Assembly: GCF_002973595.1 (NCBI RefSeq)
Contig: NZ_PVEO01000008.1
Location: forward strand, 62,001-126,000
Length of the DNA stretch: 64,000 bases
Source: Jejuia pallidilutea
GTDB lineage: Bacteria > Bacteroidota > Bacteroidia > Flavobacteriales > Flavobacteriaceae
Direction of reading: 5' to 3'
Both the position numbers and the translations under genes were made by a program. The stretch's first letter is position 1; the number at the start of each line of letters is the position of its first letter. Shown here in pieces: positions 15,763 to 49,136 of this stretch. Below the pieces are notes generated by a model that was given only the letters and a program-made list of their open reading frames with translations, was not told the origin of the DNA and ran no database searches.

Positions 15763-15776
15763 GTAACTATTGTTAC
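15763..15776. promoter_or_regulatory. Crp/Fnr-type dyad upstream of the cytochrome c lipoprotein gene
   Basis: GTAAC-TATT-GTTAC, a perfect dyad, lies 21 bases before a TATTTTTA box at 15798-15805, which places it near -41.5. The dyad extends outward as AGTACTG/CAGTACT with a one-base offset. One of eight matching sites in the window. Confidence 0.72.
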
Positions 15777-15831
15777 AGTACTATAGGCCATATATGTTAT
15801 TTTTAGGTTTTACTATACAAACATACTATTA

Positions 15832-16824
15832 ATGAAAAGTTTTATTTTAACAACGTTGGTTTTTGTTTTAATGTTTAGTTGCAATAACTCTAAAAACAAA
15901 ACATATTCTGCTTTCGATAAGCAAAAAGAAGGAAGCGAGCATCCTGGAAAAAAATTAATGGAAACCAACTGTTATGTTTGCCATAGCCCAACAGCGAGCG
16001 AAGAAGATAGAATTGGGCCACCAATGATTGCAATTAAAAAGCACTATATAACAGATAATACATCAAAAAGAGACTTTGTAGCAGCAATACAAACTTGGAT
16101 TAAAAACCCTAATGAAGAAGATGCTAAAATGTATGGTGCCGTAAAACGTTTTGGTGTTATGCCCAAAACGCCTTACCCCGAGGAAACTATCGCGCAAATT
16201 GCAGATTATATGTTTGAAAATGATATAGCGCAACCCGAATGGTTTGAAGATCATTACAATAAAGAAAGAGGCATGCACAAAGGAAAAGGTATGGGAAATG
16301 GTATGGGTAAAAGGCAAGTACAAACAAATTTTCAAGATTTACCTTATGCAGAGCGAGGATTAAAATATGCATTAACAACAAAAGCGGTATTGGGTAAAAA
16401 TTTAATGGGTACTATTCAAAAAAAAGGAACCTTAGAGGCTTTAGCATTTTGTAATGCACAAGCATACCCTTTAACCGATAGTATGGCTGTTGTTCACAAT
16501 GCTAAAATTAAGCGCGTGTCAGATAAACCAAGAAATATTAATAATCAGGCAAATACCGAAGAGTTACAGCATATTAAAACATTTAAACAGGTTATTGCTA
16601 ATAAAGAAGAGCCTAAGCCTATAGTAAAAGAGACAAACAATAAAGTAAAGGTATATTATCCTATAACTACTAACGCTATGTGCTTGCAATGTCACGGAAC
16701 GCCAAATAAAACTATTAATAAAGCTACATTAGAAAAGCTAACGTCTTTGTATCCAAAAGATAAGGCAATAGGTTACAATATTAATGAAGTAAGAGGTATT
16801 TGGAGTATTACTTTTGATAAATAA
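15832..16824 (+). CDS. Dihaem c-type cytochrome lipoprotein (cytochrome c plus DUF3365)
   Basis: The protein has 330 residues and a lipoprotein signal ending at Cys17. It holds two covalent haem motifs: CYVCH at 47-51 in an N-terminal class I cytochrome c domain and CLQCH at 284-288 in a C-terminal DUF3365 (Tll0287-like sensor) domain. A Met/Gly/Lys-rich linker near 148-163 (MHKGKGMGNGMGK) separates them. It is likely an envelope electron carrier or haem sensor. The Crp/Fnr-type dyad upstream (15763-15776) suggests control together with SQR and cydAB. Electron partners are not shown by the sequence. Confidence 0.88.
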   Translation: MKSFILTTLVFVLMFSCNNSKNKTYSAFDKQKEGSEHPGKKLMETNCYVCHSPTASEEDRIGPPMIAIKKHYITDNTSKRDFVAAIQTWIKNPNEEDAKMYGAVKRFGVMPKTPYPEETIAQIADYMFENDIAQPEWFEDHYNKERGMHKGKGMGNGMGKRQVQTNFQDLPYAERGLKYALTTKAVLGKNLMGTIQKKGTLEALAFCNAQAYPLTDSMAVVHNAKIKRVSDKPRNINNQANTEELQHIKTFKQVIANKEEPKPIVKETNNKVKVYYPITTNAMCLQCHGTPNKTINKATLEKLTSLYPKDKAIGYNINEVRGIWSITFDK

Positions 16825-16960
16825 AAATGTCAGGTATGGGCAAATTTCAAAATTAATTACTCAAGTATTAATGGTAATGTTATAGGGCTTATATAACACC
16901 TATTAACTAGATTAAAACACAGATATTAAGGCTTTTATTTAGTAAAAAATTACCAAAGTA

Positions 16961-16998
16961 TAAGTTGTACTGACAAATGTCATATTTAATACAACTTA
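16961..16998. promoter_or_regulatory. Nested inverted repeats, candidate operator
   Basis: TAAGTTGTA (16961-16969) and TACAACTTA (16990-16998) are perfect 9-bp arms. Between them lies a second dyad, TGACA-AA-TGTCA (16971-16982). The structure is followed by a TATTTTTG -7 box at 17016-17023 and the 47-residue gene at 17045. Which factor binds is unknown. Confidence 0.55.
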
Positions 16999-17044
16999 CG
17001 ATTAATATTTTTGATATTATATAGAACCGAAAAAACAAGTATTT

Positions 17045-17188
17045 ATGATAACTCAAAATATTGCATTATTTAATTGGAGTAATGGCGTGATAATGATATC
17101 TGTTTTTGGGCTGGTTTGCTTATTTCTTATTGGTTATTTAATAAAATTTATGGCTGGTGGTAGTAAGAAAAAAGACGAGTCTAAATAA
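17045..17188 (+). CDS. 47-residue single-helix membrane microprotein
   Basis: The ATG-started frame encodes 47 residues: a short polar N-terminus, one hydrophobic helix (about residues 15-33, VIMISVFGLVCLFLIGYLI) and a charged tail SKKKDESK. A TATTTTTG box lies 22 bases upstream and an elaborate dyad precedes it, both supporting a real gene. I do not recognise the family. The topology would fit a small regulatory or assembly subunit, which is speculation. Confidence 0.62.
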   Translation: MITQNIALFNWSNGVIMISVFGLVCLFLIGYLIKFMAGGSKKKDESK

Positions 17189-17218
17189 CGATATATTATA
17201 GTTTTTTTTTTGATTAAA

Positions 17219-17248
17219 AAAAGGAGCACATTAAAAAGGTGCTCCTTT
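17219..17248 (-). terminator. Terminator of the TonB receptor gene
   Basis: AAAGGAGCAC (17220-17229) pairs perfectly with GTGCTCCTTT (17239-17248). On the minus strand it is followed by a T-tract. It sits 20 bases after the receptor stop and may serve the plus-strand microprotein too. Confidence 0.88.
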
Positions 17249-19956: not shown

Positions 19957-19970
19957 GCAACTTTGGTTAC
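19957..19970. promoter_or_regulatory. Crp/Fnr-type dyad upstream of peroxiredoxin
   Basis: GCAAC-TTTG-GTTAC, one mismatch from the GTAAC-N4-GTTAC dyad. It lies 22 bases before TATATTTG (19993-20000), a match to the -7 consensus, and 58 bases before the ATG. Confidence 0.65.
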
Positions 19971-20027: not shown

Positions 20028-20696
20028 ATGAATACAATAGAAACAGTACAAGAACAAGAATTTTATTCAATGCCAAGAATTGGCGACCAAGCGCCAGATT
20101 TTGAAGCGGTAACTACCAAGGGGAAAATTAAGTTATCAGACTTTGCAAAAGATAAATGGATTGTTATGTTTTCGCATCCAGCAGATTTTACGCCAGTTTG
20201 TACCACAGAAATGAGTGGATTTGCCACTAGAAAAAATGAATTTGATGCACTAAACACAGAGTTGCTAGGCTTAAGTATAGACAGCATTCATGCACATTTA
20301 GGTTGGGTACAAAATGTGAGGGAAAATACAGGGGTATATTTTGATTTTCCTATTATAGCAGATTTAGATATGAAAGTATCTAAGCGCTATGGCATGTTAC
20401 AGCCAAATGAAAGTGAAACTGCGGCTGTACGAGCAGTGTTTTTTATAGATCCTAAGAAAAAAATTAGACTAATAATGTACTATCCTTTAAATGTGGGTAG
20501 AAACATGAACGAAATTTTAAGAGCTCTAGAAGCTTTACAAACCTCTGATAAACACAAGGTAGCAATGCCTCTAGATTGGAAAAAAGGGGATAAAGTAATA
20601 GTAGGCCCACCAAAAACTTTAGATGAGTTAAATGAAAGAATTGCAGACGATTCACTTGAAAAAGTAGACTGGTATTTAGCTAAGAAAAACTTATAA
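20028..20696 (+). CDS. 1-Cys peroxiredoxin (Prx6 type)
   Basis: Reduces peroxides with a peroxidatic cysteine. The 222-residue protein has the active site HPADFTPVCTTE with Cys58; no other cysteine is present, so it belongs to the 1-Cys class. The conserved Arg block (AAVRAVFFIDPKKKIR) and the Prx6 C-terminal extension (MPLDWKKGDKVIVGPP) are present. It is followed by a terminator and then by a metallo-beta-lactamase/rhodanese gene. The upstream dyad joins it to the Crp/Fnr group. Some Prx6 proteins reduce persulfides, which would fit this context, but the sequence does not prove it. Confidence 0.93.
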   Translation: MNTIETVQEQEFYSMPRIGDQAPDFEAVTTKGKIKLSDFAKDKWIVMFSHPADFTPVCTTEMSGFATRKNEFDALNTELLGLSIDSIHAHLGWVQNVRENTGVYFDFPIIADLDMKVSKRYGMLQPNESETAAVRAVFFIDPKKKIRLIMYYPLNVGRNMNEILRALEALQTSDKHKVAMPLDWKKGDKVIVGPPKTLDELNERIADDSLEKVDWYLAKKNL

Positions 20697-20779: not shown

Positions 20780-22120
20780 ATGAATATTACTCAATTTGAA
20801 GATAAACCATTAGCGCATTACTCTTATACAATAATTAGTGATAATAAAATGGCAATTGTCGATCCTTCCAGAGATCCAAAACCTTACTATAAACTAGCAG
20901 AAAAAGAAAATGCAAAAATAGTTGCAGTTTTTGAAACTCACCCACATGCAGATTTTGTGAGCAGTCATTTGCAAATCCATAAAGAAACAGGTGCAACAAT
21001 TTTTGTAAGCAAATTAGTTGGTGCTAATTATCCACATAAAACCTTTGATGATGGTGATGTTTTTAAATTAGGAAGCATTCAGTTTTCAGCAATAAATACA
21101 CCAGGTCACTCACCAGATAGTATTACAATTATTGCAAAAAATAACGCAGATTACGCCATGTTTTCTGGAGACACGTTGTTTATTGGTGATGTTGGTCGTC
21201 CAGATTTACGCGAAAAAGCTGGAAACATGAAAGCCAAACGCGAAGAATTAGCCAAAAGTATGTACCAAACCATGCAAACAAAATTTAACGATTTACCAGA
21301 CAATACAATAGTTTATCCAGCACATGGGGCAGGTTCGCTTTGTGGTAAAAACTTGAGTAAAGATGCCTCTAGCACTTTGGGTAGAGAGCGTAAGGAGAAC
21401 TGGGCTTTTAAAAACCTAACAGAAGACGATTTTGTTAATCACATTTTAAAAGATCAACCTTTTATTCCTTCATATTTTGGATACAATGTAGATATAAATA
21501 AAGTTGGAGCAAAAGCCTATGAACAGTCAATTTCAGAAGCAAAATTTCAATTTAAAGCGGGTAGTTTTGAAGATAACGCTATAATTATTGATGTTAGAAA
21601 TGAAGCCGATTTCAAAAAAAATCATTTAAAAGGTAGCATCAACATTATGGCTAAAACCGAAAATGATAAGTTCGAAACTTGGCTAGGATCTATCGTAAAG
21701 CCAGAAGAAGCATTTTGTGTGGTTTTAAATTCAGTTGAAGATAAAGATGAAATATTACATCGTATTGCAAAAATTGGTTATGAAAATCAATTAAAAGGGA
21801 CATTAACTTTAGATGATTCTTCTTTTGAAAGTACAGAAACATTGGATTTAGCAGATTTTAAAAACAATACAGATGAATATACTATCGTAGATATTAGAAA
21901 CAAAAGTGAAGTAGAAGAAGGTAAGTTTTTTGATAATGCCATTTCAATTCCATTAAATGAATTAAGAGACTCTGAAGAAGATATTCCTACAGACAAACCC
22001 ATAGTGGTTCATTGTGCTGGTGGTTATAGAAGTGCCGCAGGAAGTAGTATTGTTGCCACTTTAAAAACAAAAACTAAGGTTTACGATTTAGGTGAAACCG
22101 TAAAGGAGTTTAAAGGCTAA
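20780..22120 (+). CDS. CstB-like persulfide dioxygenase/rhodanese protein (copy 1)
   Basis: The protein has 446 residues in three parts. A metallo-beta-lactamase domain (1-245) carries THPHADFVSSH, GHSPDS and GDTLFIGDVGRPDL, matching ETHE1-type persulfide dioxygenases. A first rhodanese-like domain (about 255-345) has no cysteine at the active loop (VLNSVEDKD) and is a pseudo-rhodanese. A second rhodanese (about 350-446) keeps the active cysteine in HCAGGYRS. This order and length are those of CstB of Staphylococcus aureus. Proposed role: oxidation of persulfides to sulfite or thiosulfate. It is 28% or so shorter in the inter-domain region than its paralogue at 49 kb only by a few residues; both look functional. 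Confidence 0.87.
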   Translation: MNITQFEDKPLAHYSYTIISDNKMAIVDPSRDPKPYYKLAEKENAKIVAVFETHPHADFVSSHLQIHKETGATIFVSKLVGANYPHKTFDDGDVFKLGSIQFSAINTPGHSPDSITIIAKNNADYAMFSGDTLFIGDVGRPDLREKAGNMKAKREELAKSMYQTMQTKFNDLPDNTIVYPAHGAGSLCGKNLSKDASSTLGRERKENWAFKNLTEDDFVNHILKDQPFIPSYFGYNVDINKVGAKAYEQSISEAKFQFKAGSFEDNAIIIDVRNEADFKKNHLKGSINIMAKTENDKFETWLGSIVKPEEAFCVVLNSVEDKDEILHRIAKIGYENQLKGTLTLDDSSFESTETLDLADFKNNTDEYTIVDIRNKSEVEEGKFFDNAISIPLNELRDSEEDIPTDKPIVVHCAGGYRSAAGSSIVATLKTKTKVYDLGETVKEFKG

Positions 22121-22189: not shown

Positions 22190-22203
22190 GTAATAAACAT
22201 TGC
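22190..22203. promoter_or_regulatory. Degenerate Crp/Fnr-type dyad upstream of cydA
   Basis: GTAAT-AAAC-ATTGC matches 7 of 10 dyad positions. On its own it would be ignored, but 22 bases separate it from the -7 box TATTTTTG (22226-22233), the same as at the better sites. Confidence 0.45.
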
Positions 22204-22249: not shown

Positions 22250-23605
22250 ATGGATGTAGAGATTTTAGCCAGAATTCAATTTGCCTTTACCATTGCCTTT
22301 CATTACATCTATCCGCCACTTAGTATAGGTTTGGGGCTAATTATGGTTATTATGGAAGGTTTGTATTTAAAAACCGGAAAGAAAGCATATGAAGTTTTAA
22401 CACGTTTTTGGCTTAAGATATTTGCTGTAACTTTTGGTATTGGTGTTGCAACGGGTATTATAATGGAGTTTGAGTTTGGTACTAATTGGGCAGTTTACTC
22501 AAGGTATGTTGGCGATATTTTTGGAAGTGCTTTGGCTGCAGAAGGCTTATTTGCATTTGGTCTAGAAAGTGCTTTTTTGGGGGTTTTAATTTTTGGTTGG
22601 AATCGTGTATCTCCAAAAGTTCACTTTATCTCAACAATAGGTGTGTTTTTAGGCTCTATGTTCTCAGCAGTTTGGATTGTTGTTGCTAATAGTTGGCAAC
22701 AAACACCTGCAGGTTACCATATAGTTGGGGAAGGATTTAATGCGCGTGCAGAAGTTACCGATTTTTGGGCCATGGTGTTTAATCCATCAAGTGTAGATAG
22801 AATTATTCATGTATGGCAAGGTGCGTTTTTAGCTGGTGCATTTTTGGTGCTAAGCGTTCATGCTTATTATTTGTTAAAAGGCAGGTATGTTGAAATTTCA
22901 AAAAAAGCTTTTAAAATTGCTTTAGGTGTTGCAACAATAGTTTCATTTTCTCAATTAATATCTGGTCATAGTTCTGCCGATGGTGTTGCTGTTAACCAGC
23001 CTGCTAAATTAGCAGCAATGGAAGGGCATTACCAAGCCTCTGCTCCCGCCGATTTGTATTTGTTTGGTTGGGTAAATAACGATACTCAAGAAGTTTCAGG
23101 TGTTAGTATTCCCGGAGGATTATCTTTTTTAGTAGATCAAGATTTTGAAGCTCCAATAACTGGCTTAAATGCTTTTCCAGAAGAAGATAGGCCAGGGCAG
23201 GTTAATGCTGTTTTTCAGTTTTACCACATTATGGTGTCTATAGGGTTGTTTTTAATAGCATTAACCCTATACGCTAGCTTTTTATGGTGGAAGGGAAAAC
23301 TATTCGATAAGAAATGGCTCTTAAAGATTTTTGCATTCTCTGTGCTCTTGCCTCAAATAGCTAATCAAGTAGGTTGGTTTGCAGCAGAAATGGGTAGACA
23401 ACCTTGGATTGTTTATGGTCATTTAAGAACAGATGAAGGCTTCTCGCAAGAGGTGTCTTCTAATCAAATTCTATTTTCACTAATATTATTTTTGGTGGTT
23501 TACACAATATTGTTTTTGTTATTTATATACACTGTAAATAAGAAAATAAAGCATGGGCCTTACGATGAAGCTAAAAACCCGAATGAATTTTTAAAATACG
23601 TTTAA
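22250..23605 (+). CDS. cydA: Cytochrome bd ubiquinol oxidase subunit I
   Basis: Catalytic subunit of the high-affinity terminal oxidase cytochrome bd. From ATG 22250 (MDVEILARIQFAF) it has 451 residues. The haem b595/d ligand region is at the N-terminus (FHYIYPPLSIG), with SGHSSADGVAVNQPAKLAAMEGHY for quinol binding and GRQPWIVYGHLRT near the end. The quinol loop is of the short type. Cytochrome bd resists sulfide, which inhibits haem-copper oxidases; the position beside peroxiredoxin and a persulfide dioxygenase therefore makes sense. The upstream dyad suggests Crp/Fnr control. Confidence 0.96.
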   Translation: MDVEILARIQFAFTIAFHYIYPPLSIGLGLIMVIMEGLYLKTGKKAYEVLTRFWLKIFAVTFGIGVATGIIMEFEFGTNWAVYSRYVGDIFGSALAAEGLFAFGLESAFLGVLIFGWNRVSPKVHFISTIGVFLGSMFSAVWIVVANSWQQTPAGYHIVGEGFNARAEVTDFWAMVFNPSSVDRIIHVWQGAFLAGAFLVLSVHAYYLLKGRYVEISKKAFKIALGVATIVSFSQLISGHSSADGVAVNQPAKLAAMEGHYQASAPADLYLFGWVNNDTQEVSGVSIPGGLSFLVDQDFEAPITGLNAFPEEDRPGQVNAVFQFYHIMVSIGLFLIALTLYASFLWWKGKLFDKKWLLKIFAFSVLLPQIANQVGWFAAEMGRQPWIVYGHLRTDEGFSQEVSSNQILFSLILFLVVYTILFLLFIYTVNKKIKHGPYDEAKNPNEFLKYV

Positions 23606-23615
23606 TAAAATAACT

Positions 23616-24653
23616 ATGGAAACTATCTTAGGATTAGATTACCCAACACTTTGGTATTTAGTAGTAGGCTTATTATTTTCAGGTTATGCTATTTTAGAAG
23701 GATTTGATTATGGTGCGGGCGCATGGCATTTATTTTTAAGAAAAGATTTAAGTCGTCGCATAGCTATTAATGCTATAGGTCCGCTATGGGATGCCAACCA
23801 AGTATGGTTAATTATAGGTGGTGGTGCTTTATTTGCAGGGTTTCCAGTAATGTATGCAACTATGTTATCTTCAATGTACGTGCCTTTTATGTTGTTTTTA
23901 ATGTTGCTAGTGTTGCGTTCTTCAGCAATAAAATTTAGAAGCGCCGAAAAAATGTTATGGTGGCGAAAAACTTGGGATATTATTTATTTTATATCAAATA
24001 CATTAATAGCTTTTTTATTAGGTGTTGTTTTAGCTAATATTTTACAGGGTTTTGAGCTGCATGAGAATTTTTCTTATAAGGGTGGAATTTTCTTTTCATT
24101 TCTTAGTCCTTATTCTGTTATGGTTGGTTTTACAACTTTGTCTGTATTCATGACACAGGGTGCTATTTTTTTATTATTGAAAACCGAGGGGCGTTTACAT
24201 ACCAGATTAACCTTTTTGTTAAAAAGAGGTATGGTTTTATTTCTCATTAGTTTTGCGGTAACCTCTACATATACGTTAACTTTTTTACCAGGAGTAATTA
24301 ATAAATTTAAAGAAACCCCTATATTTTTTATTCTCCCAGTTTTGGCTTTTTTAGCTGTAGCAAATGTACCAAGGCTAGTCTCAAAGAAAAAGTATGCCCA
24401 TGCACTTGTCTTCTCATCGTTAACAATGGCATTTTTATTAATGCTGGTAGCATTTCAATTGTATCCCGTATTAATTCCCTCTACTGTAGACCCTAAATAT
24501 AGCGTAACTATTTATAATGCCGCATCGTCTCAAAAATCATTAGGCATTATGCTAACTATAGTTTTAATAGGCGCACCACTTTTGGCGGGATATTTCTTGT
24601 TCTTATATAAAACATTTCATGGCAAAGTAAAGTTGGATGATACTAGTTATTAA
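23616..24653 (+). CDS. cydB: Cytochrome bd ubiquinol oxidase subunit II
   Basis: The membrane partner of CydA, 345 residues with eight or nine transmembrane helices. The start YPTLWYLVVGLLFSGYAILEGFDYGAGAWH is characteristic, as is GPLWDANQVWLI near 55-66. It follows cydA after ten bases and ends before a clear terminator. No CydX-like or cydDC genes are nearby. Confidence 0.96.
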   Translation: METILGLDYPTLWYLVVGLLFSGYAILEGFDYGAGAWHLFLRKDLSRRIAINAIGPLWDANQVWLIIGGGALFAGFPVMYATMLSSMYVPFMLFLMLLVLRSSAIKFRSAEKMLWWRKTWDIIYFISNTLIAFLLGVVLANILQGFELHENFSYKGGIFFSFLSPYSVMVGFTTLSVFMTQGAIFLLLKTEGRLHTRLTFLLKRGMVLFLISFAVTSTYTLTFLPGVINKFKETPIFFILPVLAFLAVANVPRLVSKKKYAHALVFSSLTMAFLLMLVAFQLYPVLIPSTVDPKYSVTIYNAASSQKSLGIMLTIVLIGAPLLAGYFLFLYKTFHGKVKLDDTSY

Positions 24654-24733: not shown

Positions 24734-24743
24734 TATAGTTAAT

Positions 24744-33590: not shown

Positions 33591-34232
33591 ATGAAAAATT
33601 CAGTTTTAAGGCATTTTGCTATCGTTTTAATGCTAGTTACATTTTTTTACGCTTGTAGCAATAACAATGACGATATTGAAAATACCGATGTTAACAATAA
33701 TGATATTACTGATGAAGTGTTAACAGACGCAGACGAAGTTGCCTTACTGTTTATGTTAGAAGAAGAAAAGTTGGCAAGAGATACCTATGCTTATCTATAC
33801 AATTTATGGTCTATAAAACAATTTGCAAATATTAAAAAAAGCGAACAAACCCATATGAACGCAATTGAGGATTTATTGGTTAAATACAATGTGGCGTATG
33901 CAATTTTACCAGATGGAGTATTTAATAATAAAGATTTGCAAGACCTCTACAATCAGTTTGTGATTAACGGGGCTATAGATAAAGTTAATGCATTTAAAAT
34001 TGGTGCCACAATAGAGGATTTGGATATTGTAGATTTACAAACCCTAATTAACAATACTGAAACCACTAGTATTATTTCTGTGTTTAAAAATCTGCAATGT
34101 GGTTCTCGCAACCATTTAAGGAGTTTTATTACAGGCTTAAAAAATGCAGGAGGCACTTATATACCACAATTTTTAACTCAAGCAGAGTATGATGCTATTC
34201 TATTGGAAGATAACGAAAAATGCAATCAATAG
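33591..34232 (+). CDS. DUF2202 ferritin-like lipoprotein
   Basis: From ATG 33591 the protein has 213 residues, with a lipobox ending at Cys22 (FFYAC). The DUF2202 domain has paired helices with possible di-metal ligands: MLEEEKLARDTYAYLY near 54-69 and KKSEQTHMNAIEDLL near 83-97. The upstream in-frame start at 33519 falls in the regulatory dyad and is rejected. The family is ferritin-like, so metal or redox chemistry is likely; the reaction is unknown. It is transcribed alone between two dyad-bearing promoters. Confidence 0.86.
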   Translation: MKNSVLRHFAIVLMLVTFFYACSNNNDDIENTDVNNNDITDEVLTDADEVALLFMLEEEKLARDTYAYLYNLWSIKQFANIKKSEQTHMNAIEDLLVKYNVAYAILPDGVFNNKDLQDLYNQFVINGAIDKVNAFKIGATIEDLDIVDLQTLINNTETTSIISVFKNLQCGSRNHLRSFITGLKNAGGTYIPQFLTQAEYDAILLEDNEKCNQ

Positions 34233-34252: not shown

Positions 34253-34266
34253 GTAACATAGGTTAC
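34253..34266. promoter_or_regulatory. Crp/Fnr-type dyad upstream of the TolC-RND operon
   Basis: GTAAC-ATAG-GTTAC, a perfect dyad, 22 bases before TATTTTTG (34289-34296), which puts its centre at about -41. Confidence 0.74.
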
Positions 34267-34315: not shown

Positions 34316-35626
34316 ATGAAAAAAACGATATACACATTAATAGCATTAGCACTTTTGAGTAACATGAAGTTGCAAGCTCAAGAGCTTATTTCTATTACAA
34401 AAACAGAAGTGTTAGGGCGAGTTTCAGAAAACAATACAAGCATTAAAATTTCTGAAGAAGAATTTAAACAAGCAAGGGCAGATTATCGCCAAACAAACGC
34501 AGTGTTTCTGCCAAACATTACGGCAAGCCATACAGGTATTGCCACTACAAATCCGTTAATGGCCTTTGGCTCTAAATTAAACCAAGAAATTTTAACGCAG
34601 AACGATTTTAATCCAGCGTTATTAAACGATCCTTCGCAAATTGAAAATTATGCTACAAGGTTAGAGATACAACAACCATTAATCAATCTAGATGGTTTGT
34701 ATCAGCGAAAAGCGGCCAAATCTAAAATGGAAGCTATGGCCTTAAAAACCGAGCGTACCGAAGACTTTTTAGCGTTTGAAGTAGAAAAGGCGTACATGCA
34801 ACTACAACTGGCTTATAAAGCGGTGGACGTTTTAGAAAAAGCCCTAGAAGCCGCAAATGCCAACAAAAAAATAGCCGATAATAGTTTTAAACAAGGCTAT
34901 TTGCAACGTGCCGATGTGCTAAATGTAGAGGTGCGAGTTACCGAGGTGCAAAACCAGTTACAAATGGCAAAAAGTAATGTACAAAATGCTTCTAACTATT
35001 TGTCGTTTTTAATGAATGATGACATCAACGTTGTTTACAAACCTTCCGATGATTTATCTGTAACCACAATAAACTTAGAAGACCAAACCATTTCAGAGAA
35101 CCGATCGGATATTAAAGCAATGCAATTGGCTTCAAACGCTTATGAAGCCATGAACAAAGCCGATAAAATGGCCTTTTTACCAAGATTGAATGCTTTTGGA
35201 AGTTACGAATTGTACGACGACCAGATTTTTCAAGCCGATGCTAACGGCTATTTATTTGGAGCGCAATTAAGCTGGGATATTTTTCAGGGCTCTAAACGTT
35301 TTGGAAAAGCCCAAAAAAGTAAAGCTGAATTTGAAAAATCTAAATTAGAATACGAGCAATACGTATCACAAAGTAACCTAGAGTTAAATAAGGCCAAACG
35401 CACTTTTTTAGATGCCGAAAACAAACTAAAGCTAACCACCAAAGCACTAGAACAGTCCGAAGAATCCTTAAGAATACGTACCAATAGGTTTAAGGAAGGT
35501 TTAGAAAAAACATCCGATATATTATTGGCCGAAACACAATATGCACAAAAACAACTAGAATATTATCAAACCATTTTTGAGTATAATTACGCGCAAGCTT
35601 ACCTTCAATTTTTGACTAAAGAGTAA
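34316..35626 (+). CDS. TolC family outer membrane protein (RND system)
   Basis: The protein has 436 residues with a signal peptide ending near QAQE. Both OEP repeats are seen as long coiled-coil helices, e.g. FEVEKAYMQLQLAYKAVDVLEKA and YETNxxGYLFGAQLSWDIFQGS-like barrel strands. It is the outer channel of the RND pump encoded downstream and differs from the TolC of the ABC operon. It is the first gene after the dyad at 34253. Confidence 0.92.
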   Translation: MKKTIYTLIALALLSNMKLQAQELISITKTEVLGRVSENNTSIKISEEEFKQARADYRQTNAVFLPNITASHTGIATTNPLMAFGSKLNQEILTQNDFNPALLNDPSQIENYATRLEIQQPLINLDGLYQRKAAKSKMEAMALKTERTEDFLAFEVEKAYMQLQLAYKAVDVLEKALEAANANKKIADNSFKQGYLQRADVLNVEVRVTEVQNQLQMAKSNVQNASNYLSFLMNDDINVVYKPSDDLSVTTINLEDQTISENRSDIKAMQLASNAYEAMNKADKMAFLPRLNAFGSYELYDDQIFQADANGYLFGAQLSWDIFQGSKRFGKAQKSKAEFEKSKLEYEQYVSQSNLELNKAKRTFLDAENKLKLTTKALEQSEESLRIRTNRFKEGLEKTSDILLAETQYAQKQLEYYQTIFEYNYAQAYLQFLTKE

Positions 35627-35691
35627 AAGGAGAACACATAATTAACAACAAGAACAACAATAAATTCTCTTAGAATTTAATACGTATAAAA

Positions 35692-36771
35692 ATGAAAAAT
35701 AAATTAAATACCATCATAGCATTTTCAATAGCTTTTGTAATTACTAGCTGCGGAAACGAAGATAAAAAAGTTGTTGCAGATAATACACCAGCAATTGCTG
35801 TAAAAACGAGTAAAGTAGAAACTAACGGCAGCAGTCCGTTCTTATCTGTAAGCGGAAAAATACAAGCTACAAACAGTGCAGAGTTGAGTACAAGACTAAT
35901 GGGTTACGTAAATAAAGTACATGTTAATGTTGGCGATAAAGTACGCAAAGGGCAGTTGTTGGTTTCTATAAACAATACCGATTTACAAGCAAAACGCGCA
36001 CAAGTTAACGCAGGCATTACCGAAGCTACGGCAGCATTTAATAACGCTGAAAAAGATTACAAGCGTTTCCAAAACCTGTTTGCAGACAGCAGCGCCTCAC
36101 AAAAAGAAATGGATGATATAACGGCCAATTATAAAATGGCAAAAGCGCGATTAGAAGCGGCTAACCAAATGAAAAACGAAGTGAACGCGCAATTGGCTTA
36201 CAGCAATATTACAGCGCCTTTTAATGGCGTTATTACGGGCAAAAATGTAAAAGAAGGCGATATGGCAAACCCAGGAATGCCTTTAATAAGTATAGAAACA
36301 CCGGGAAGTTTTGAGGTTGTGGCCATGGTGCCTGAAACCGAAATATCAGATATTAAAACAGGAACAACTGTTGATGTTGTGGTAAATTCTGTAAACGCAA
36401 CCCTAAAAGGAAAAGTTACAGAAGTGAGTACCTCTGCTAAAAACACAGGTGGCCAGTATTTGGTAAAAATAAACTTAGATAAAACAGATACAACTATTTT
36501 GTCTGGCATGTTTACAACTGTACAATTTCCGGTAGAAAGAAAATCAAAATCGTCAATGGTTTTAATTCCAACGGAAGCCATTGTAACCAACGGTCAATTA
36601 TCTGGAGTGTATACGGTAAGCCAAAGCAATACAGCCATTTTGCGCTGGTTGCGCTTGGGCAGAACGTTTGGTGACCAAGTAGAGGTATTATCGGGTTTAA
36701 ACGGTGATGAAGCTTATATAGTTTCTGCTGAAGGCAAACTTTATAATGGTGCAAAGATTAATGTGCAGTAG
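35692..36771 (+). CDS. RND efflux periplasmic adaptor (MFP) lipoprotein
   Basis: The protein has 359 residues and a lipobox ending at Cys20 (FVITSC). It has the domain order of membrane fusion proteins: lipoyl halves (MGYVNKVHVNVGDKVRKGQLL near 74-94 and ITAPFNGVITGKNVKEGDM near 175-193), a coiled-coil hairpin between them, a beta-barrel and a C-terminal membrane-proximal domain. It connects the TolC protein with the RND pump. A gap of 280 bases with repeats separates it from the pump gene. Confidence 0.92.
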   Translation: MKNKLNTIIAFSIAFVITSCGNEDKKVVADNTPAIAVKTSKVETNGSSPFLSVSGKIQATNSAELSTRLMGYVNKVHVNVGDKVRKGQLLVSINNTDLQAKRAQVNAGITEATAAFNNAEKDYKRFQNLFADSSASQKEMDDITANYKMAKARLEAANQMKNEVNAQLAYSNITAPFNGVITGKNVKEGDMANPGMPLISIETPGSFEVVAMVPETEISDIKTGTTVDVVVNSVNATLKGKVTEVSTSAKNTGGQYLVKINLDKTDTTILSGMFTTVQFPVERKSKSSMVLIPTEAIVTNGQLSGVYTVSQSNTAILRWLRLGRTFGDQVEVLSGLNGDEAYIVSAEGKLYNGAKINVQ

Positions 36772-36804
36772 GCAGTAGGCAGTCGCAGTTGCAGTTGTCA
36801 GCAT

Positions 36805-36831
36805 CCTGCAAGGTTTCAAAAAACTTGTAGG
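36805..36831. repeat. Palindromic repeat CCTGCAAGGTTTC (adaptor-pump gap)
   Basis: CCTGCAAGGTTTC and AAACTTGTAGG are imperfect arms of the same repeat as at 30446. It directly follows a degenerate tandem of cagtagg/cagttg units. Confidence 0.65.
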
Positions 36832-36887
36832 TATTACATAGAAGCGTAAATCACATAAGAGTAAGTGCGTTAAGGATAGAAACGGCA

Positions 36888-36952
36888 TCCTTTTTACGTC
36901 AGGTCGAGTGAATTTGCAAGAGCAAATTTGTATCGAGAACAAGTAAAAAGAT
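36888..36952. repeat. Nested inverted repeat with TCGAG core
   Basis: Outer arms CTTTTTAC (36890-36897) and GTAAAAAG (36943-36950) enclose GGTCGAGTG, an inner stem AATTTGC (36911-36917) with GCAAATT (36922-36928), and TATCGAGAAC. It resembles TCGAG...TCGAGAAC blocks often seen between flavobacterial genes. Confidence 0.6.
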
Positions 36953-37053
36953 ATAGTGGATAGCCTGTTAAAACGCCCAAAACAAAAAATAAATATTAAT
37001 TAAACAATTTCCCGTTCAGTTTTCCCCTTTTGGGGAATTAAAAGGGGCTTATT

Positions 37054-40000
37054 ATGAAAGAAGGAATCGCAGGAAAAATCGCTAAAGTCTTTATGCAGTC
37101 CAAGTTAACAGTTTTGTTAATGATTGTGTTTATGGTGGTTGGTGTTTACAGTTCGTTTTTAATACCACGAGAGGAAGAACCACAAATTGATGTGCCAATG
37201 GCAGATATTTTTGTGGGTTATCCTGGTGCTAGTCCTACCGAAGTAGAATCGCGTGTTATTAAACCTTTAGAGCAATTAATTTCGAATATCAAGGGTGTGG
37301 AATATGTGTATTCTACATCCATGAAAGAGCAAGGTATGGTCATCGTTCAGTTTTATGTAGGCGAAGATATTGAGCGTAGTTTTGTAAAACTATACAACGA
37401 AATTAACAAGCACATGGATGAAATGCCGGCAGGAGTAACGTTTCCGCTGGTAAAAACCCGAGCTATTGACGATGTGCCAATGTTAGGACTCACTTTATGG
37501 AGCGAGAATTACGACGATTACCAATTGGGCCAAATGGCACAAGAGTTAGAATCTGAAATAAAAAAGGTAAACGACGTTGCCATAACACATAAAATTGGTG
37601 GTAGAAACAGGCAGTTGCGCGTAGTTTTAGATAAAGATAAACTAGCGGCAAGCGGTTTAGATTTTTTATCGGTTTCTGAAATGATAAAGGCTAATAACAG
37701 CCAATTAAATTCAGGCCGTTTTGATAAAAACGATACCGAGTTTATTGTTAATACAGGTAAGTTTTTAGAATCGGTAACAGACGTAGAAAATTTAGTGGTT
37801 GGCGTGCAGCAAAATCAGCCTATTTATTTAAAGCAGGTCGCAAAAATTATAGATGGACCAGAAGTACCACAAAACTATGTGAGTTTGGGCTTTGGAAAAG
37901 GTAGCGAAAAGGCCAAAGAGTATCAGTCTGAATATCCGGCAGTTACCATTTCTGTAGCCAAACGAAAAGGTGCCGATGCCATGAAAATTGCAGAAGTTAT
38001 TATTAACAAAGTAGAGCATTTACGTACCACGTTAATTCCAGACGATGTTCATGTAGAAATTACCAGAAATTATGGAGAAACAGCGTCACATAAAGTTTCA
38101 GAATTGCTCTTACATCTCATAGGTTCAATCATTGCAGTTACTATTGTAGTAATGCTGGCTATGGGTTGGCGCGGTGGTTTGGTGGTGTTTTTATCGGTGC
38201 CTATTACGTTTGCTCTAACCTTACTTAGCTATTACATGTTAGACTATACGCTTAACAGAATTACCTTATTTGCTTTGGTTTTTGTAACAGGAATTGTGGT
38301 GGACGACTCAATTATTATAGCCGAAAATATGCACAGGCATTTTAAAATGAAACGCTTACCTTTTAAACAAGCAGCTTTGTATGCCATAAATGAGGTTGGT
38401 AACCCAACTATTTTGGCAACATTTACAGTAATAGCTTCGGTTTTGCCAATGGCTTTTGTATCTGGTTTAATGGGACCATACATGGCACCAATGCCAATTG
38501 GTGCATCTATAGCTATGATTTTATCGCTTTTTGTAGCGCTAACCATTACGCCATATTTGGGTTATATCTTTTTAAGGGAAAAAGATAAATCTGCGCGTTT
38601 GAAAGACGATAAAAGTGCCGAGGAAAAAAAGGAAAAGGCTGTTGAAGATACACTTATTTATAAGGTTTATAACAAGTTTGAACGCCCTTTATTAGAAAGT
38701 AAATCTAAGCGTTGGTTGTTTTTGGGAGGTACATTTGCATTGTTGCTAGGTACAATGGCTTTGTTTTTAACCAATTCGGTAGCCGTAAAAATGTTGCCTT
38801 TTGATAATAAGAATGAATTTCAGGTGGTTATCGATATGCCTGAGGGAACAACACTTGAGCGTACAGGTGTTGTAGCACAAGAGATTGCCCAATATTTAGC
38901 TACGAGGCCAGAAGTTGTTAATTATCAGAACTATGTGGGCACATCAGCACCAATAACCTTTAATGGCTTGGTACGTCATTACGATTTACGTGGTGGCAGC
39001 AATATGGCAGATATTCAAGTTAATTTATTGGATAAAAGTGAACGAAGCATCCAAAGCCATGGTATTGCAAAACTATTACGACCAGATATTCAAAAAATTG
39101 CTTCAAAATATAATGCCAATGTAAAGTTGGTAGAAGTGCCACCAGGACCACCAGTATTATCTACCATAGTTGCTGAGGTTTACGGGCCAGATTATAATAA
39201 ACAAATTGAAATTGCTAATAGTGTTCAAAATATATTAAAAAACACGGATGATGTTGTGGATATCGACTGGATGGTAGAAGCAGACCAAACCGAATATCAA
39301 TTCACTATAAATAAAGAAAAAGCCATGTTGTATGGCGTAGCACCGCAACAAATTGTTTATACCATGAATTTGGCACTCTCTAATAGGGCTATTACAAATT
39401 TGTATGATGAAGATGCTGTAAACCAAATTGAGTTATTATTAGCTTTAGATGAAAAAGCCAAATCTACTGTTACGGATATTTCACAATTAAAAGTAAAATC
39501 TAAACAGGGAACTATGGTGCCTATTGCAGATTTGGTAGCTATTAAACAAACGACGTCTGCAAAAAGTATTTATCGTAAAAACCAAAAACGTGTGGTATAT
39601 GTTTTGGCAGATATGGCTGGGGAATTGGAAAGTCCTGCGTATGCTATTTTGGGTATGGAAGAAAAACTAAAAGACATCCAGTTACCAGAAGGCTACACTA
39701 TAAATGAAATGTATCTGGGGCAGCCAGAATTTGAAGATGACTATACCGTTAAATGGGACGGAGAATGGCAAATTACGCTCGAAGTGTTTAGAGACTTGGG
39801 CATCGCTTTTTTAGGCGCTATTATCCTTATTTATATTCTCATTGTTGGTTGGTTTCAAAACTTTAAAGCACCAATTGTAATGATGGTAGCCATACCGTTG
39901 TCCTTAATAGGCATTATTTTAGGTCATTGGATTATGGGTGCATTCTTTACAGCAACCTCTTTTATAGGTATGATTGCTTTGGCAGGAATTATGGTAAGAA

Positions 40001-40269
40001 ATTCGGTATTACTTATAGATTTTATCAATCTAAGAACAGCGGAAGGTGTACCATTAAAACAAGCCGCTATTGAAGCAGGTGCAGTACGTACAACACCAAT
40101 TTTATTAACAGCCGGAACCGTTGTAATAGGTGCATTTGTAATACTGTTCGACCCAATTTTTCAAGGGTTGGCCATATCGCTAATGGGCGGCACCATAGTG
40201 TCAACCGTATTTACTTTATTGGTTGTGCCTTTGGTGTATTATATGATAGAGAAGAAGAATTATAAGTAA
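37054..40269 (+). CDS. RND efflux pump, HAE1/AcrB-like permease
   Basis: An inner-membrane proton antiporter of 1071 residues with 12 helices and two large periplasmic loops. The start FMQSKLTVLLMIVFMVVGVYSS precedes EEPQIDVPMADIFVGYPGASPTEVE, typical of the family. Helix IV has GIVVDDSIIIAENMHRH near 415-431 with two acidic residues for proton relay. No methionine clusters for heavy metals (as in CusA) are obvious, so the substrate is probably organic. It acts with the adaptor and TolC upstream. The promoter of the operon carries the Crp/Fnr-type dyad. Confidence 0.94.
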   Translation: MKEGIAGKIAKVFMQSKLTVLLMIVFMVVGVYSSFLIPREEEPQIDVPMADIFVGYPGASPTEVESRVIKPLEQLISNIKGVEYVYSTSMKEQGMVIVQFYVGEDIERSFVKLYNEINKHMDEMPAGVTFPLVKTRAIDDVPMLGLTLWSENYDDYQLGQMAQELESEIKKVNDVAITHKIGGRNRQLRVVLDKDKLAASGLDFLSVSEMIKANNSQLNSGRFDKNDTEFIVNTGKFLESVTDVENLVVGVQQNQPIYLKQVAKIIDGPEVPQNYVSLGFGKGSEKAKEYQSEYPAVTISVAKRKGADAMKIAEVIINKVEHLRTTLIPDDVHVEITRNYGETASHKVSELLLHLIGSIIAVTIVVMLAMGWRGGLVVFLSVPITFALTLLSYYMLDYTLNRITLFALVFVTGIVVDDSIIIAENMHRHFKMKRLPFKQAALYAINEVGNPTILATFTVIASVLPMAFVSGLMGPYMAPMPIGASIAMILSLFVALTITPYLGYIFLREKDKSARLKDDKSAEEKKEKAVEDTLIYKVYNKFERPLLESKSKRWLFLGGTFALLLGTMALFLTNSVAVKMLPFDNKNEFQVVIDMPEGTTLERTGVVAQEIAQYLATRPEVVNYQNYVGTSAPITFNGLVRHYDLRGGSNMADIQVNLLDKSERSIQSHGIAKLLRPDIQKIASKYNANVKLVEVPPGPPVLSTIVAEVYGPDYNKQIEIANSVQNILKNTDDVVDIDWMVEADQTEYQFTINKEKAMLYGVAPQQIVYTMNLALSNRAITNLYDEDAVNQIELLLALDEKAKSTVTDISQLKVKSKQGTMVPIADLVAIKQTTSAKSIYRKNQKRVVYVLADMAGELESPAYAILGMEEKLKDIQLPEGYTINEMYLGQPEFEDDYTVKWDGEWQITLEVFRDLGIAFLGAIILIYILIVGWFQNFKAPIVMMVAIPLSLIGIILGHWIMGAFFTATSFIGMIALAGIMVRNSVLLIDFINLRTAEGVPLKQAAIEAGAVRTTPILLTAGTVVIGAFVILFDPIFQGLAISLMGGTIVSTVFTLLVVPLVYYMIEKKNYK

Positions 40270-46453: not shown

Positions 46454-46506
46454 GGTATTAATAAACCAAACTATAACAAATTCTTTTAAAATTGTTATTT
46501 TTGGGT

Positions 46507-47136
46507 ATGGATAAAAACCTATTACTGCAAAAATTTGCGCAGACCTTGGATAGCGCGCTAATTACCGAGATTTCTGAGAAAGGAATATTCAAAAGTTTTA
46601 AAAAAGATGATATTATAATTGATATTCATCAAACCCTAAAGTTTATCCCACTTTTATTAACTGGCGACATCAAAATTATAAGAGAGGATAGCGACGGTAA
46701 CGAGTTATTAATTTATTTCCTAGAAGCTGGCGACACCTGTACCATGTCGCTAACCTGTTGTTTGGGTACCACTAAAAGTAAAATTCGAGCAGTAGCCGAA
46801 AAGGATTCCACTTTGGTGATGATACCTGTGGAAAATATGCAAAAATGGTTTCACAATAACGAAAGTTGGAGAAATTTTATATTACAAAGTTACCAAATAC
46901 GTTTTGATGAAATGCTAGAAGCCATAGACAGTTTGGCATTTATGAAAATGGACGAACGCCTCTACAAATATTTAAAAAATATGGCTATGGTAGATGGTAC
47001 AAAAACCATATCTATTAAACATCAAGACATAGCCGAAGATTTAAACACCTCGCGAGTGGTAGTATCCAGACTCTTAAAAAAGTTGGAAAACGAAAATAAA
47101 ATAGAATTAGGAAGAAATAAAATTGTAATGATTTAA
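46507..47136 (+). CDS. Crp/Fnr family regulator with CTMSLTCC sensor motif
   Basis: From ATG 46507 (MDKNLLLQKFAQ) the protein has 209 residues. The cyclic-nucleotide-type beta-roll covers 20-120 and the winged helix-turn-helix 140-209, with the recognition helix NTSRVVVSRLLKKLE. FLEAGDTCTMSLTCCLG places C78, C84 and C85 in the sensor domain. There is no N-terminal FNR-type iron-sulfur cysteine set and the cAMP-binding arginine pattern is not seen. It precedes the YeeE-TauE-CstB genes. An upstream frame start at 46492 falls in the -7 box. The predicted mRNA start lies at or near the ATG itself. Confidence 0.92.
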   Translation: MDKNLLLQKFAQTLDSALITEISEKGIFKSFKKDDIIIDIHQTLKFIPLLLTGDIKIIREDSDGNELLIYFLEAGDTCTMSLTCCLGTTKSKIRAVAEKDSTLVMIPVENMQKWFHNNESWRNFILQSYQIRFDEMLEAIDSLAFMKMDERLYKYLKNMAMVDGTKTISIKHQDIAEDLNTSRVVVSRLLKKLENENKIELGRNKIVMI

Positions 47137-47289: not shown

Positions 47290-47303
47290 GTAACGTTTAT
47301 CAC
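47290..47303. promoter_or_regulatory. Hybrid Crp/Fnr-type dyad upstream of YeeE
   Basis: GTAAC-GTTT-ATCAC has one consensus half-site and one GTGAT-type half-site. It is 21 bases before TAAATTTG (47325-47332), the -7 box of the YeeE gene. Confidence 0.55.
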
Positions 47304-47348
47304 TTAAAAAAATTAACTTCAATGTAAATTTGTATTAAATTATTAGGT

Positions 47349-47906
47349 ATGCACTATATTTTGAATCCTTGGCCTTGGTATGTTTCAGGGCCGCTTATTG
47401 CCTTAGTTATGGCTTTTCTACTTTATTTTGGCAAAACATTTGGCATGTCATCAAACCTAAAAACCTTGTGCACTATAGCTGGTGCAGGTAAATTTGCCGA
47501 TTTTTTTAATTTTAAATGGAAAGATCAAGTTTGGAACCTAACCGTGGTTCTAGGTGCCATTATTGGCGGTTTTGTTGCAGTACAATTTCTGTCAAATAAT
47601 TCTGGTACAGATTTAAATCCAGCTACCATTACCGAACTTCGAAATATGGGTTTTAAAAATCCTGGGGCAACCTTAGTACCAAACGAAATGTACGATATAG
47701 ATGTCTTAGCATCACCAAAAGCATTAATAATTCTTGTAATTGGCGGATTACTAGTTGGTTTTGGCACCCGTTATGCAGCCGGTTGTACTTCGGGACATGC
47801 TATTTTAGGCTTAAGCAGTTTGCAAAAACCATCTTTAATAGCCGTAATTGGTTTTTTTATTGGTGGTCTTATCATGGCTAATTTTATTTTACCCTTAATT
47901 TTTTAA
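47349..47906 (+). CDS. YeeE/YedE-type thiosulfate transporter, N-terminal half
   Basis: The protein has 185 residues with four or five helices and the conserved cysteine motif GTRYAAGCTSGHAILGLSSLQ near the C-terminus. In YeeE this cysteine takes part in relay of thiosulfate through the membrane. Full-length YeeE has two such halves; here the second half is the next gene, two bases downstream. The pair should act as one transporter of thiosulfate or a related sulfur compound. Confidence 0.9.
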   Translation: MHYILNPWPWYVSGPLIALVMAFLLYFGKTFGMSSNLKTLCTIAGAGKFADFFNFKWKDQVWNLTVVLGAIIGGFVAVQFLSNNSGTDLNPATITELRNMGFKNPGATLVPNEMYDIDVLASPKALIILVIGGLLVGFGTRYAAGCTSGHAILGLSSLQKPSLIAVIGFFIGGLIMANFILPLIF

Positions 47907-47908
47907 TT

Positions 47909-48322
47909 ATGAAGTTTATAAAATTCTTATTAGTTGGTATATTTTTTGGCATAGTATTGGTGAAATCCGAAGCTGTGTCTTGGTATCGTATCTACGAGAT
48001 GTTTCGCTTTCAATCGTTTCACATGTATGGTATTATTGGTGCTGCAATACTCTCTGGAATTCTGTTTCTTCAACTTTCAAAAAAGGGAATTATAAAAAAC
48101 ATTAGAGGTGCACATATTCATGTTCCACAGAAAGAAAGCGGATTTGTTAGATTTATTATTGGCGGTATTATTTTTGGTTTAGGTTGGGCGCTTATAGGTG
48201 CGTGTCCCGGACCTATGTATATTCTTTTAGGAACTGGTGTTTGGAGCATGATAATTGTAATAGTGGCCGCTATATTTGGTACCTTTTTATATGGATTGTT
48301 TAAAGATAAGTTACCACACTAA
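47909..48322 (+). CDS. YeeE/YedE-type transporter, C-terminal half (DUF6691)
   Basis: The protein has 137 residues with four helices. The conserved cysteine motif reads GLGWALIGACPGPMYILLGTG (near 95-115), the partner of the motif in the preceding half. A start directly behind the first half and a stop directly before TauE (TAAATGG) indicate one operon. Confidence 0.89.
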   Translation: MKFIKFLLVGIFFGIVLVKSEAVSWYRIYEMFRFQSFHMYGIIGAAILSGILFLQLSKKGIIKNIRGAHIHVPQKESGFVRFIIGGIIFGLGWALIGACPGPMYILLGTGVWSMIIVIVAAIFGTFLYGLFKDKLPH

Positions 48323-49114
48323 ATGGATACCATACAAATATTAGGCTACGTAGGAGCATTAGTTGTTGGGCTGGTATTAGGCTTAATTGGTGGTGGAGGT
48401 TCTATATTAACTGTGCCGTTATTAGTTTATCTTTTAGGTTATAATCCAGTAATTGCTACTGCATATTCATTATTTGTTGTTGGCACCTCATCGTTGTTTG
48501 GCACCTATCAAAAACATAAAAAAGGTTTGGTAGATTTTAAAACAGGGCTAGCATTTTCTTTCCCCTCTTTTGTGGCGGTGTACTTAACAAGACGTTATTT
48601 AGTTCCTGGTATTCCTGAGGTGTTTTTAAGTAATGGAGGTTTTACGCTTACCAAGGATATGGCCATTATGGTTTTTTTCGCAGTTATCATGATAATTGCA
48701 TCATATTCTATGATTAAAAACAGAAAGGAAAAGCTTAAAACTACAGAAAGTCAGCCTTATTATAAAACATTTGTTCAAGGGGTTGTTATTGGTGTTATAA
48801 CCGGTGTTATTGGTGCTGGGGGTGGGTTTTTATATGTTCCGGCTCTTGTATTGTGGGCAAATATTCCAATGAAAAAAGCCGTTGGTACCTCATTAATTAT
48901 TGTAACTATAAATTCGTTAATAGGGTTTATGGGCGATGTACAAACTTTAGATATAGAATGGACCTTTCTTTTAATATTTACAGGAATATCTATATTAGGT
49001 ATTTTTTTAGGTGTATTCCTCTCAAAATTTATAAGCGGAAAAAAATTAAAGAAGAGCTTTGGTTATTTTATTTTGATAATGGCTACGTATATCATTTACA
49101 AGGAGTTAAAATAG
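48323..49114 (+). CDS. TauE/SafE family sulfite/sulfur-anion exporter
   Basis: The protein has 263 residues in two repeats of four helices: GLVLGLIGGGGSILTVPLLVYLLGYNP near the start, and GVITGVIGAGGGFLYVPALVLWANIPMKKAVGTSL near 155-190. This is the DUF81/TauE pattern. It probably exports sulfite or a related anion produced by persulfide oxidation. It sits between the YeeE pair and the CstB-like gene, as tauE does in the S. aureus cst operon. Confidence 0.91.
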   Translation: MDTIQILGYVGALVVGLVLGLIGGGGSILTVPLLVYLLGYNPVIATAYSLFVVGTSSLFGTYQKHKKGLVDFKTGLAFSFPSFVAVYLTRRYLVPGIPEVFLSNGGFTLTKDMAIMVFFAVIMIIASYSMIKNRKEKLKTTESQPYYKTFVQGVVIGVITGVIGAGGGFLYVPALVLWANIPMKKAVGTSLIIVTINSLIGFMGDVQTLDIEWTFLLIFTGISILGIFLGVFLSKFISGKKLKKSFGYFILIMATYIIYKELK

Positions 49115-49122
49115 TTTTAAAA

Positions 49123-49136
49123 GTAATATAAGTTAC
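49123..49136. promoter_or_regulatory. Crp/Fnr-type dyad upstream of the second CstB-like gene
   Basis: GTAAT-ATAA-GTTAC, one mismatch, 22 bases before TAATTTTG (49159-49166). Confidence 0.66.

Follow-up and report, generated by a model that had tools for sequence, protein, structure and literature searches.

A putative class II Crp/Fnr regulon for reduced sulfur, marked by GTAAC-N4-GTTAC dyads, in Jejuia pallidilutea and other Flavobacteriaceae

Why does one region of a flavobacterial genome carry eight similar inverted repeats, each a short distance before a promoter-like box, and which protein reads them? The region is a stretch of 64,000 nucleotides from Jejuia pallidilutea (G000:C8:62001-126000, part of a 4.11 Mb draft genome), referred to here as the window. 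An inspection of its letters had proposed that these GTAAC-N4-GTTAC dyads define a regulon for sulfide or reactive-sulfur and respiratory stress (the original prediction). On sequence evidence, we consider it probable, at roughly 0.8, that a class II activator of the Crp/Fnr family, likely the product of the gene at 46507-47136, reads the dyads and that the regulon handles reduced sulfur.

All eight dyads were read directly in the sequence, on the forward strand and exactly where they had been predicted. The four claimed to be perfect are so: 15763..15776 (GTAACTATTGTTAC), 31673..31686, 33523..33536 and 34253..34266. Those at 19957..19970 and 49123..49136 have one mismatch each, and the two described as more degenerate have two (47290..47303) and three (22190..22203, GTAATAAACATTGC). 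The TAnnTTTG-like box was likewise found downstream at the predicted distance of 21 or 22 bases, with at most one mismatch in seven of the eight cases. The gap is 22 bases after 19957 (TATATTTG, 19993-20000), 22190 (the perfect box TATTTTTG, 22226-22233), 33523 (TAATTTTA, 33559-33566), 34253 (again perfect, TATTTTTG, 34289-34296) and 49123 (TAATTTTG, 49159-49166), and 21 bases after 15763 (TATTTTTA, 15798-15805) and 47290 (TAAATTTG, 47325-47332). The weakest box follows the 31673 dyad, where TAATCTTT (31708-31715) and AATCTTTA are the candidates, with two mismatches whichever spacing is taken. On the minus strand, the 15763 dyad also forms a two-mismatch composite with a 21-base gap (15734-15776), facing a tRNA at 15577-15650.

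In AT-rich DNA with a common promoter box, such dyads might arise by chance, and the bare dyad behaves as this would predict. At up to two mismatches it is not enriched in the window (36 against 32.5 expected), and at up to one mismatch the whole genome holds 184 copies against 153 of the control; bare-dyad counts were dropped as evidence for these reasons. Sequence statistics do establish the composite of dyad and box as a motif. The window contains 5, 9 and 17 composites at up to one, two and three mismatches, compared with means of 0.01, 0.22 and 3.15 in 100 simulated order-2 Markov sequences and with 0, 0 and 6 for the reversed pattern; the nine composites at up to two mismatches include a second reading of each of the 31673 and 15763 dyads. 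Moreover, 4 of the 11 perfect dyads of the genome lie in the window, which is 1.6% of its length. Genome scans used the consensus and a mismatch count rather than a matrix. At up to three mismatches they gave no excess of composites at spacing 22 (87 against 89 for the control) and little at spacing 21 (133 against 116), so strict matches are preferred and a degenerate site such as 22190 needs the support of orthologues. Since composites with a perfect or near-perfect match outnumber every control and are conserved, chance is refuted for the strict sites and is a very remote explanation of the whole, whereas for an individual weak site of this genome, such as 22190, it may yet apply.

The intergenic placement of the composites is clear in related genomes. 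In the loci of 80 relatives (1.55 Mb), 138 of 145 composites at up to two mismatches are intergenic, against none of 8 control hits; one dyad can count twice among the 145. The genome of J. pallidilutea itself agrees at up to one mismatch and spacing 22, where four of the five hits are in the window and the fifth precedes a sulfite dehydrogenase gene. It is mixed otherwise: at the same stringency, the three hits with spacing 21 are one in the window, one before a DUF983 gene and one coding, and at up to two mismatches and spacing 22 there are 18 hits, five of them coding and five intergenic by apparently unrelated genes. Weaker sites near genes for a methyladenine glycosylase, UvrD, an aldehyde dehydrogenase and a beta-helix protein were judged to be chance occurrences.

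Among the 11 perfect dyads, four fall within open reading frames (ORFs) and seven are intergenic, the 33523 dyad being counted as intergenic after re-assignment of a DUF2202 start codon. Four of the intergenic dyads are in the window; the other three all precede sulfur-type operons, which strengthens the sulfur part of the original prediction. The dyad at C3:247900 stands before a gene for a SorA-like sulfite dehydrogenase with a rhodanese and has a box at 22 bases. That at C2:288686 precedes an operon for a molybdopterin oxidoreductase, a ferredoxin, NrfD and YeeE, with a divergent multihaem cytochrome gene, and that at C2:295180 precedes a rhodanese-porin operon which contains a Crp/Fnr paralogue and is followed by moeA.

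The geometry of these promoters is also established statistically, and it points to activation. After the 21 exact dyads in the loci of the 80 relatives, TAnnTTTG occurs at offset 22 in eight cases; a search of 60 bases on either side found it at a different offset a single time. Promoters were scored as passing when their best composite had at most three mismatches of 16; passing yeeE promoters number 42 at spacing 22 and 21 at spacing 21, and the cstB promoters 56 and 12. Mapping of start sites in Flavobacterium psychrophilum placed the TAnnTTTG box at -12 to -5 (PMC9723704), and a gap of 22 bases therefore centres the dyad at -41.5 and a gap of 21 bases at -40.5. This strengthens the proposed class II position near -41.5, the operator centre being predicted here from start sites mapped in F. 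psychrophilum rather than in the host. From what is known of the Crp/Fnr family, we infer that a homodimeric activator would bind GTRAY-N4-RTYAC centred at -41.5 (or -40.5), recruit RNA polymerase to the TAnnTTTG promoters and switch them on. If the dyad were instead the operator of a repressor and overlapped the -33 region of the promoter, it would span -48 to -35 and could block the polymerase. However, repressors tolerate varied positions, whereas the distance between dyad and box is mostly 21-22 bases in dozens of promoters, as class II activation needs; we regard a repressor as improbable.

The dyad and its box are conserved at orthologous promoters, as the original prediction implied. 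Target genes were checked in smaller samples than the survey of 199 genomes described below. The 80 named loci were chosen as regulator-bearing and are mutually related, so that their fractions are not counts of independent events, and for sqr and sorA the sets comprise the top 30 matches in each case (from 30 of 30 and 30 of 54 genomes, respectively). With a spacing of 21 or 22 required, a site was found in 61 of 79 yeeE promoters (0.1 in shuffled sequences), 67 of 78 cstB promoters (0.2), 24 of 30 sqr promoters (0.2) and 18 of 30 sorA promoters (0.2, computed on an earlier count of 16). For cydA, only 9 of 30 homologues have a site (shuffled 0.15), and regulation of cydAB is called lineage-dependent on the basis of these promoters. 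The respiratory-stress part of the original prediction, which depends largely on cydAB, is weaker as a result of the degenerate site of this operon in J. pallidilutea, although its two closest orthologues (L355 and L356) have perfect dyads. The half-site of the cstB promoters varies between GTAAC, GTGAC, GTGAT and GTAAT, at times on both sides together; among 42 distinct sites, departures are symmetric in 19 cases and one-sided in 39. The operator word is better written GTRAY-N4-RTYAC.

The most plausible reader of these sites is encoded within the window, by a gene which the original prediction did not mention and which ends 154 bases before the 47290 dyad. This gene (46492..47136, forward strand) probably starts at 46507 (MDKN...). 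Its product belongs to the Crp/Fnr family, with PF00027 (cNMP_binding, the sensor domain) and PF13545 (HTH_Crp_2, the C-terminal helix-turn-helix) both above their cut-offs, and Foldseek matched it to Crp/Fnr structures with E-values down to 5.7e-16. The AlphaFold model has a mean pLDDT of 87.4 and a pTM of 0.64, and residues 81-90, which include C84, are the least certain (block mean 58). The large rmsd in most Foldseek rows means that the domain arrangement is different or uncertain. The closest named relatives of the regulator come from Algibacter, Wocania and Hyunsoonleella. In six of seven relatives inspected, the regulator gene is followed by ORFs of the size of yeeE, yeeE2, tauE and cstB, in this order, and among the 80 regulator loci a relative of yeeE is present in 79, of yeeE2 in 79 and of cstB in 78.

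Two features of this protein may account for what it senses and what it binds. It has only three cysteines, C78, C84 and C85; the first two are present in 117 of 117 closer homologues (at least 60% identity; several genomes are in this set twice) and C85 in 115 of 117. All of 8 more distant homologues keep C78, and C84 is not found in all of them. The recognition helix reads SRVVVSR, with valine in 117 of 117 closer homologues at the position which we take to be equivalent to Glu-181 of CRP; the alignment with NtcA agrees. In the same genus, four more distant Crp/Fnr paralogues (L027, L030, L031 and L032) keep C78 and have glutamate at 181 (SREVISR); judging from this helix, they should recognise a different operator word, perhaps one closer to GTGAC.

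The same word, GTAACnnnnGTTAC, was derived for HcpR2 by Rodionov et al. (2005) from sites before hcp and was tied to replacement of Glu-181 by proline (PMC1274295). The predicted target of HcpR2 is hcp, in Clostridium, Bacteroides, Thermotogales and Treponema (PMC1274295). The identity of the words would suit a nitrosative-stress regulon of the HcpR/DNR type in which the sulfur genes are secondary, and a bd oxidase could fit such a stress. Both proteins are of the Crp/Fnr family and without the FNR cysteine motif. Nevertheless, HcpR2 has proline at 181 where the present regulator and its 117 closer homologues have valine; PF03063, the family of hcp, has no match in this genome, the only one of the family searched, whereas 5 of 14 control genomes match; and sulfur, redox and efflux genes recur downstream of the sites in other genera. 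In the parts of PMC1274295 covered, no sulfur regulon is attributed to HcpR2. The lack of hcp and the residue at 181 lead us to rank nitrosative control low, slightly below a repressor.

A Crp/Fnr activator, our preferred reading, also predicts that sites and regulator occur together, and statistically they do. In 199 Flavobacteriaceae genomes, 821 composites were counted at up to one mismatch against 149 control hits. Genomes with a close homologue of the regulator (n=152) hold 5.21 composites each, compared with 0.77 for the reversed pattern; those with a weak homologue only (n=15) hold 1.2 (control 0.8) and those without a regulator (n=32), 12 of which were assigned by elimination, 0.34 (control 0.62). 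The border between close and weak homologues (1e-50) was set after the table had been seen. Close-regulator and no-regulator genomes differ with a Mann-Whitney p of 4e-17, with no correction for genome size or relatedness. Many genomes that lack the regulator are small and have lower counts for that reason, yet their control counts nearly equal those of the others. At least two composites are present in 138 of the 152 genomes with a close homologue. In addition, 45 of 131 sites lie within 25 kb of a regulator homologue (2.1 expected) and at least one does so in 19 of 26 genomes, these being the genomes, out of 34, with a full site list and a located regulator (7 without a located regulator and one with a partial list were omitted); an earlier count in 12 hand-picked genomes had given 34 of 87. 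Among the sorA promoters, 18 of 26 from genomes with a close homologue have a site and none of 4 from genomes with a weak one or none (p 0.018), the best composites of these four having at least 4 mismatches (exactly 4 in L258).

Sites found by the pattern alone lead to the same kinds of genes. Of the 166 genomes with a match, 30 contributed one locus each. Of these 30 sites, 28 were called intergenic, whereas 27 of 30 control sites were coding and 3 intergenic; the ORFs overlapping the remaining two sites look spurious, one through an alternative start and one as a short ORF. Downstream genes were assigned by similarity to window proteins or by Pfam. The commonest is tolC, with 7 cases (L296 was assigned by its N-terminus, the other six by BLAST), followed by cstB (4), yeeE (2) and, once each, tauE, a peroxiredoxin, a redoxin, a rhodanese, a di-haem cytochrome c peroxidase, a porin and a methyltransferase. 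This peroxiredoxin, with 50% identity to that of the window, stands after a site in another genus (L308). DUF983 was found once by Pfam (L309) with a look-alike in L317, and a sulfate permease once by Pfam (L323) with a look-alike in L322. The downstream genes of L315 and L321 had no Pfam match, in L304 and L312 the distance to the next gene is 1286 and 374 bases, and in L301, where the site is close to the sorA gene of that genome, no downstream gene was called.

Several observations weigh against this reading. With regard to the reader itself, the paralogue at C2:298567, with 43% identity, could recognise the same word, so that the window protein is a proposed rather than an established cognate activator. 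The recognition helix of the paralogue likewise begins with SRVV, and two of the three intergenic perfect dyads outside the window are 3.4 and 9.9 kb away from its gene. We therefore weigh the possibility that the paralogue is the main reader, or that both share one operator word, as the strongest alternative, albeit an unlikely one. In the 80 named loci, the sites belong to genes directly downstream of the close orthologue; these loci were fetched for that orthologue, and their placement is not independent evidence against the paralogue. In those loci, the regulator's own promoter has no site at up to three mismatches (0 of 80), and autoregulation was rejected on this count.

Other points concern the sites. 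Outside the window, the -41.5 geometry is found at only one of the three intergenic perfect dyads, that of sorA, and the C2:295180 dyad, before the rhodanese gene, has no box nearby. Fewer than two composites occur in 14 of the 152 genomes with a close homologue, and 7 of the 26 genomes have no site within 25 kb of the regulator. At up to three mismatches, a site is missing from yeeE in 18 of 79 species and from sorA in 8 of the 26 genomes that have a close homologue. SQR is encoded in only 30 of the 199 genomes and cannot be the core of the regulon. The spacing is also less exclusive than the window suggests: yeeE promoters pass at spacing 16 (18) and 33 (14) as well, cstB promoters at 14 (12), sqr promoters at 22 in 24 cases and at other spacings in up to 12, and sorA promoters at 22 in 16 cases, at 16 in 11 and at 13 and 23 in 10. 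Since a perfect dyad allows a poor box (half a box) to pass, sqr and sorA support the dyad more than the spacing. The yeeE dyads are asymmetric, with 2 symmetric and 34 one-sided departures among 24 distinct sites, and position 5 of the half-site is symmetric in 10 of 64. Finally, the L309 site before DUF983 is in a genome without a regulator match (G203), where DUF983 may answer to something else.

All genes following the eight dyads are on the forward strand and were assigned by Pfam. The 15763 dyad precedes a gene for a cytochrome c/Tll0287-like protein (15832..16824), and the 19957 dyad one for a 1-Cys-type peroxiredoxin (20028..20696). Downstream of the latter is a gene for a metallo-beta-lactamase/rhodanese protein (20780..22120), the second of its type in the window and absent from the original prediction. 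The 22190 dyad stands before cydA and cydB, encoding a cytochrome bd oxidase (22250..24653); cydB is followed by genes for a TetR-type regulator and an outer-membrane efflux protein (24711-26611). After the 31673 dyad comes a gene for an SQR-like flavoprotein (Pyr_redox_2, 31818..33275), which matches the NCBIfam model of type III SQR weakly (52.6 bits, cut-off 525). The 33523 dyad precedes the DUF2202 gene (33591..34232), whose start is, from the sequence, probably 33591 rather than 33519, because an ORF from 33519 would cover the dyad. The 34253 dyad is followed by TolC, HlyD and RND efflux genes (34316..40269), with a Flavo-1 RNA (Rfam RF01705, 43.3 bits, gathering threshold 42) at 36865-36974, between the HlyD and RND genes. 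The last two dyads precede YeeE-like, DUF6691/YeeE-like and TauE transport genes (47349..49114) and a gene for a protein with metallo-beta-lactamase and rhodanese domains (49223..50635), called CstB-like after the original prediction, our own basis being the Pfam domains.

Taken as targets of one activator, these genes would form a pathway for reduced sulfur. YeeE and TauE could import and export reduced sulfur, SQR could oxidise sulfide, the CstB-like dioxygenase/rhodanese could handle persulfides, and the SorA-like protein encoded outside the window could oxidise sulfite; the peroxiredoxin, the bd oxidase, the cytochrome and the RND pump would be further members. This gene content and the two invariant cysteines suggest sulfane sulfur as the signal, which would modify C78 and C84, both located in the sensor domain. 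In Hyphomicrobium, SoxT1B serves SoxR as a signal-transduction unit (PMC11582611); by analogy, the YeeE pair may supply the signal here.

The original prediction also stated that its author knew of no published description. This is only partly right, since the operator word is that of HcpR2, as mentioned above. As for the regulon, among the best-ranked matches in the open-access literature, to which our search was largely confined, we recognised no Crp/Fnr sulfur-oxidation regulon in Bacteroidota, and no regulator of sulfur oxidation in flavobacteria turned up there. The regulator, its sulfur regulon and the family-wide spread are new, while GTAACnnnnGTTAC is known. Flavobacteria have been named among marine sulfur oxidisers in the context of thiosulfate (PMC12345210). 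A Crp/Fnr homologue of Flavobacteriales has been treated as MalR-like, and GTAAC does not occur in the parts of that paper covered (PMC8510549); HcpR has been described with an RNA in Bacteroides (PMC13370916).

Known regulators share some features with the window protein and differ in others. NtcA has the consensus GTAN8TAC near -41.5 (PMC3898017). Its helix TRVTVTR aligns with SRVVVSR, so that an RVxVxR helix and a GTAN8TAC site are common to both. However, NtcA exerts nitrogen control via 2-oxoglutarate in cyanobacteria and lacks the C78/C84 pair in the aligned stretch, and the genes downstream of the present sites concern sulfur, efflux and redox functions rather than nitrogen assimilation. 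FNR senses oxygen through a [4Fe-4S] cluster bound by four cysteines, whereas the window protein has three cysteines. SoxR and sHdrR with SoxT in Hyphomicrobium resemble the proposed system in the control of sulfur oxidation in response to sulfane sulfur and in their YeeE-like partners (PMC11582611, PMC10451225, PMC12423496), but they are ArsR-type repressors of Alphaproteobacteria, not Crp/Fnr activators. The best match by E-value, in both sequence and fold, is PDB 3dv8, a putative Crp/Fnr regulator of Eubacterium rectale, which has counterparts of C78 and C84, has glutamate at 181 and is not a Bacteroidota protein.

These comparisons allow a broader proposal, which we put forward tentatively and at somewhat less than even odds. 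A Crp/Fnr subfamily sensing sulfane sulfur through C-x5-C(C) would, across Flavobacteriaceae, be the master activator of the heterotrophic oxidation of sulfide, persulfide and sulfite; its NtcA-like helix with Val-181 would reach GTAAC-N4-GTTAC independently of HcpR2, and Crp/Fnr proteins of other phyla, for example 3dv8, might share its sensor chemistry. Val-181 would also be a second route to the operator word of HcpR2, which is useful for predicting Crp/Fnr specificity. The fixed-geometry motif and its candidate regulator form a testable sulfur-response network, which would link poorly understood genes (DUF2202, the TolC-RND pump and perhaps DUF983) to sulfur handling.

Two further sites in this genome were noted. 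On the side of the divergent cytochrome, a perfect box stands 43 bases from the dyad before the molybdopterin oxidoreductase gene (L046, 4687-4700), which places this dyad at about -62.5. Being two helical turns from -41.5, it could possibly mark a class I promoter; as a single case, this is not claimed. The DUF983 gene has a one-mismatch composite with a 21-base gap 149 bases before it (L176, G000:C1:264731), and from this site together with those of L309 and the look-alike L317 DUF983 may be a member of the regulon, even though the L309 genome has no regulator match.

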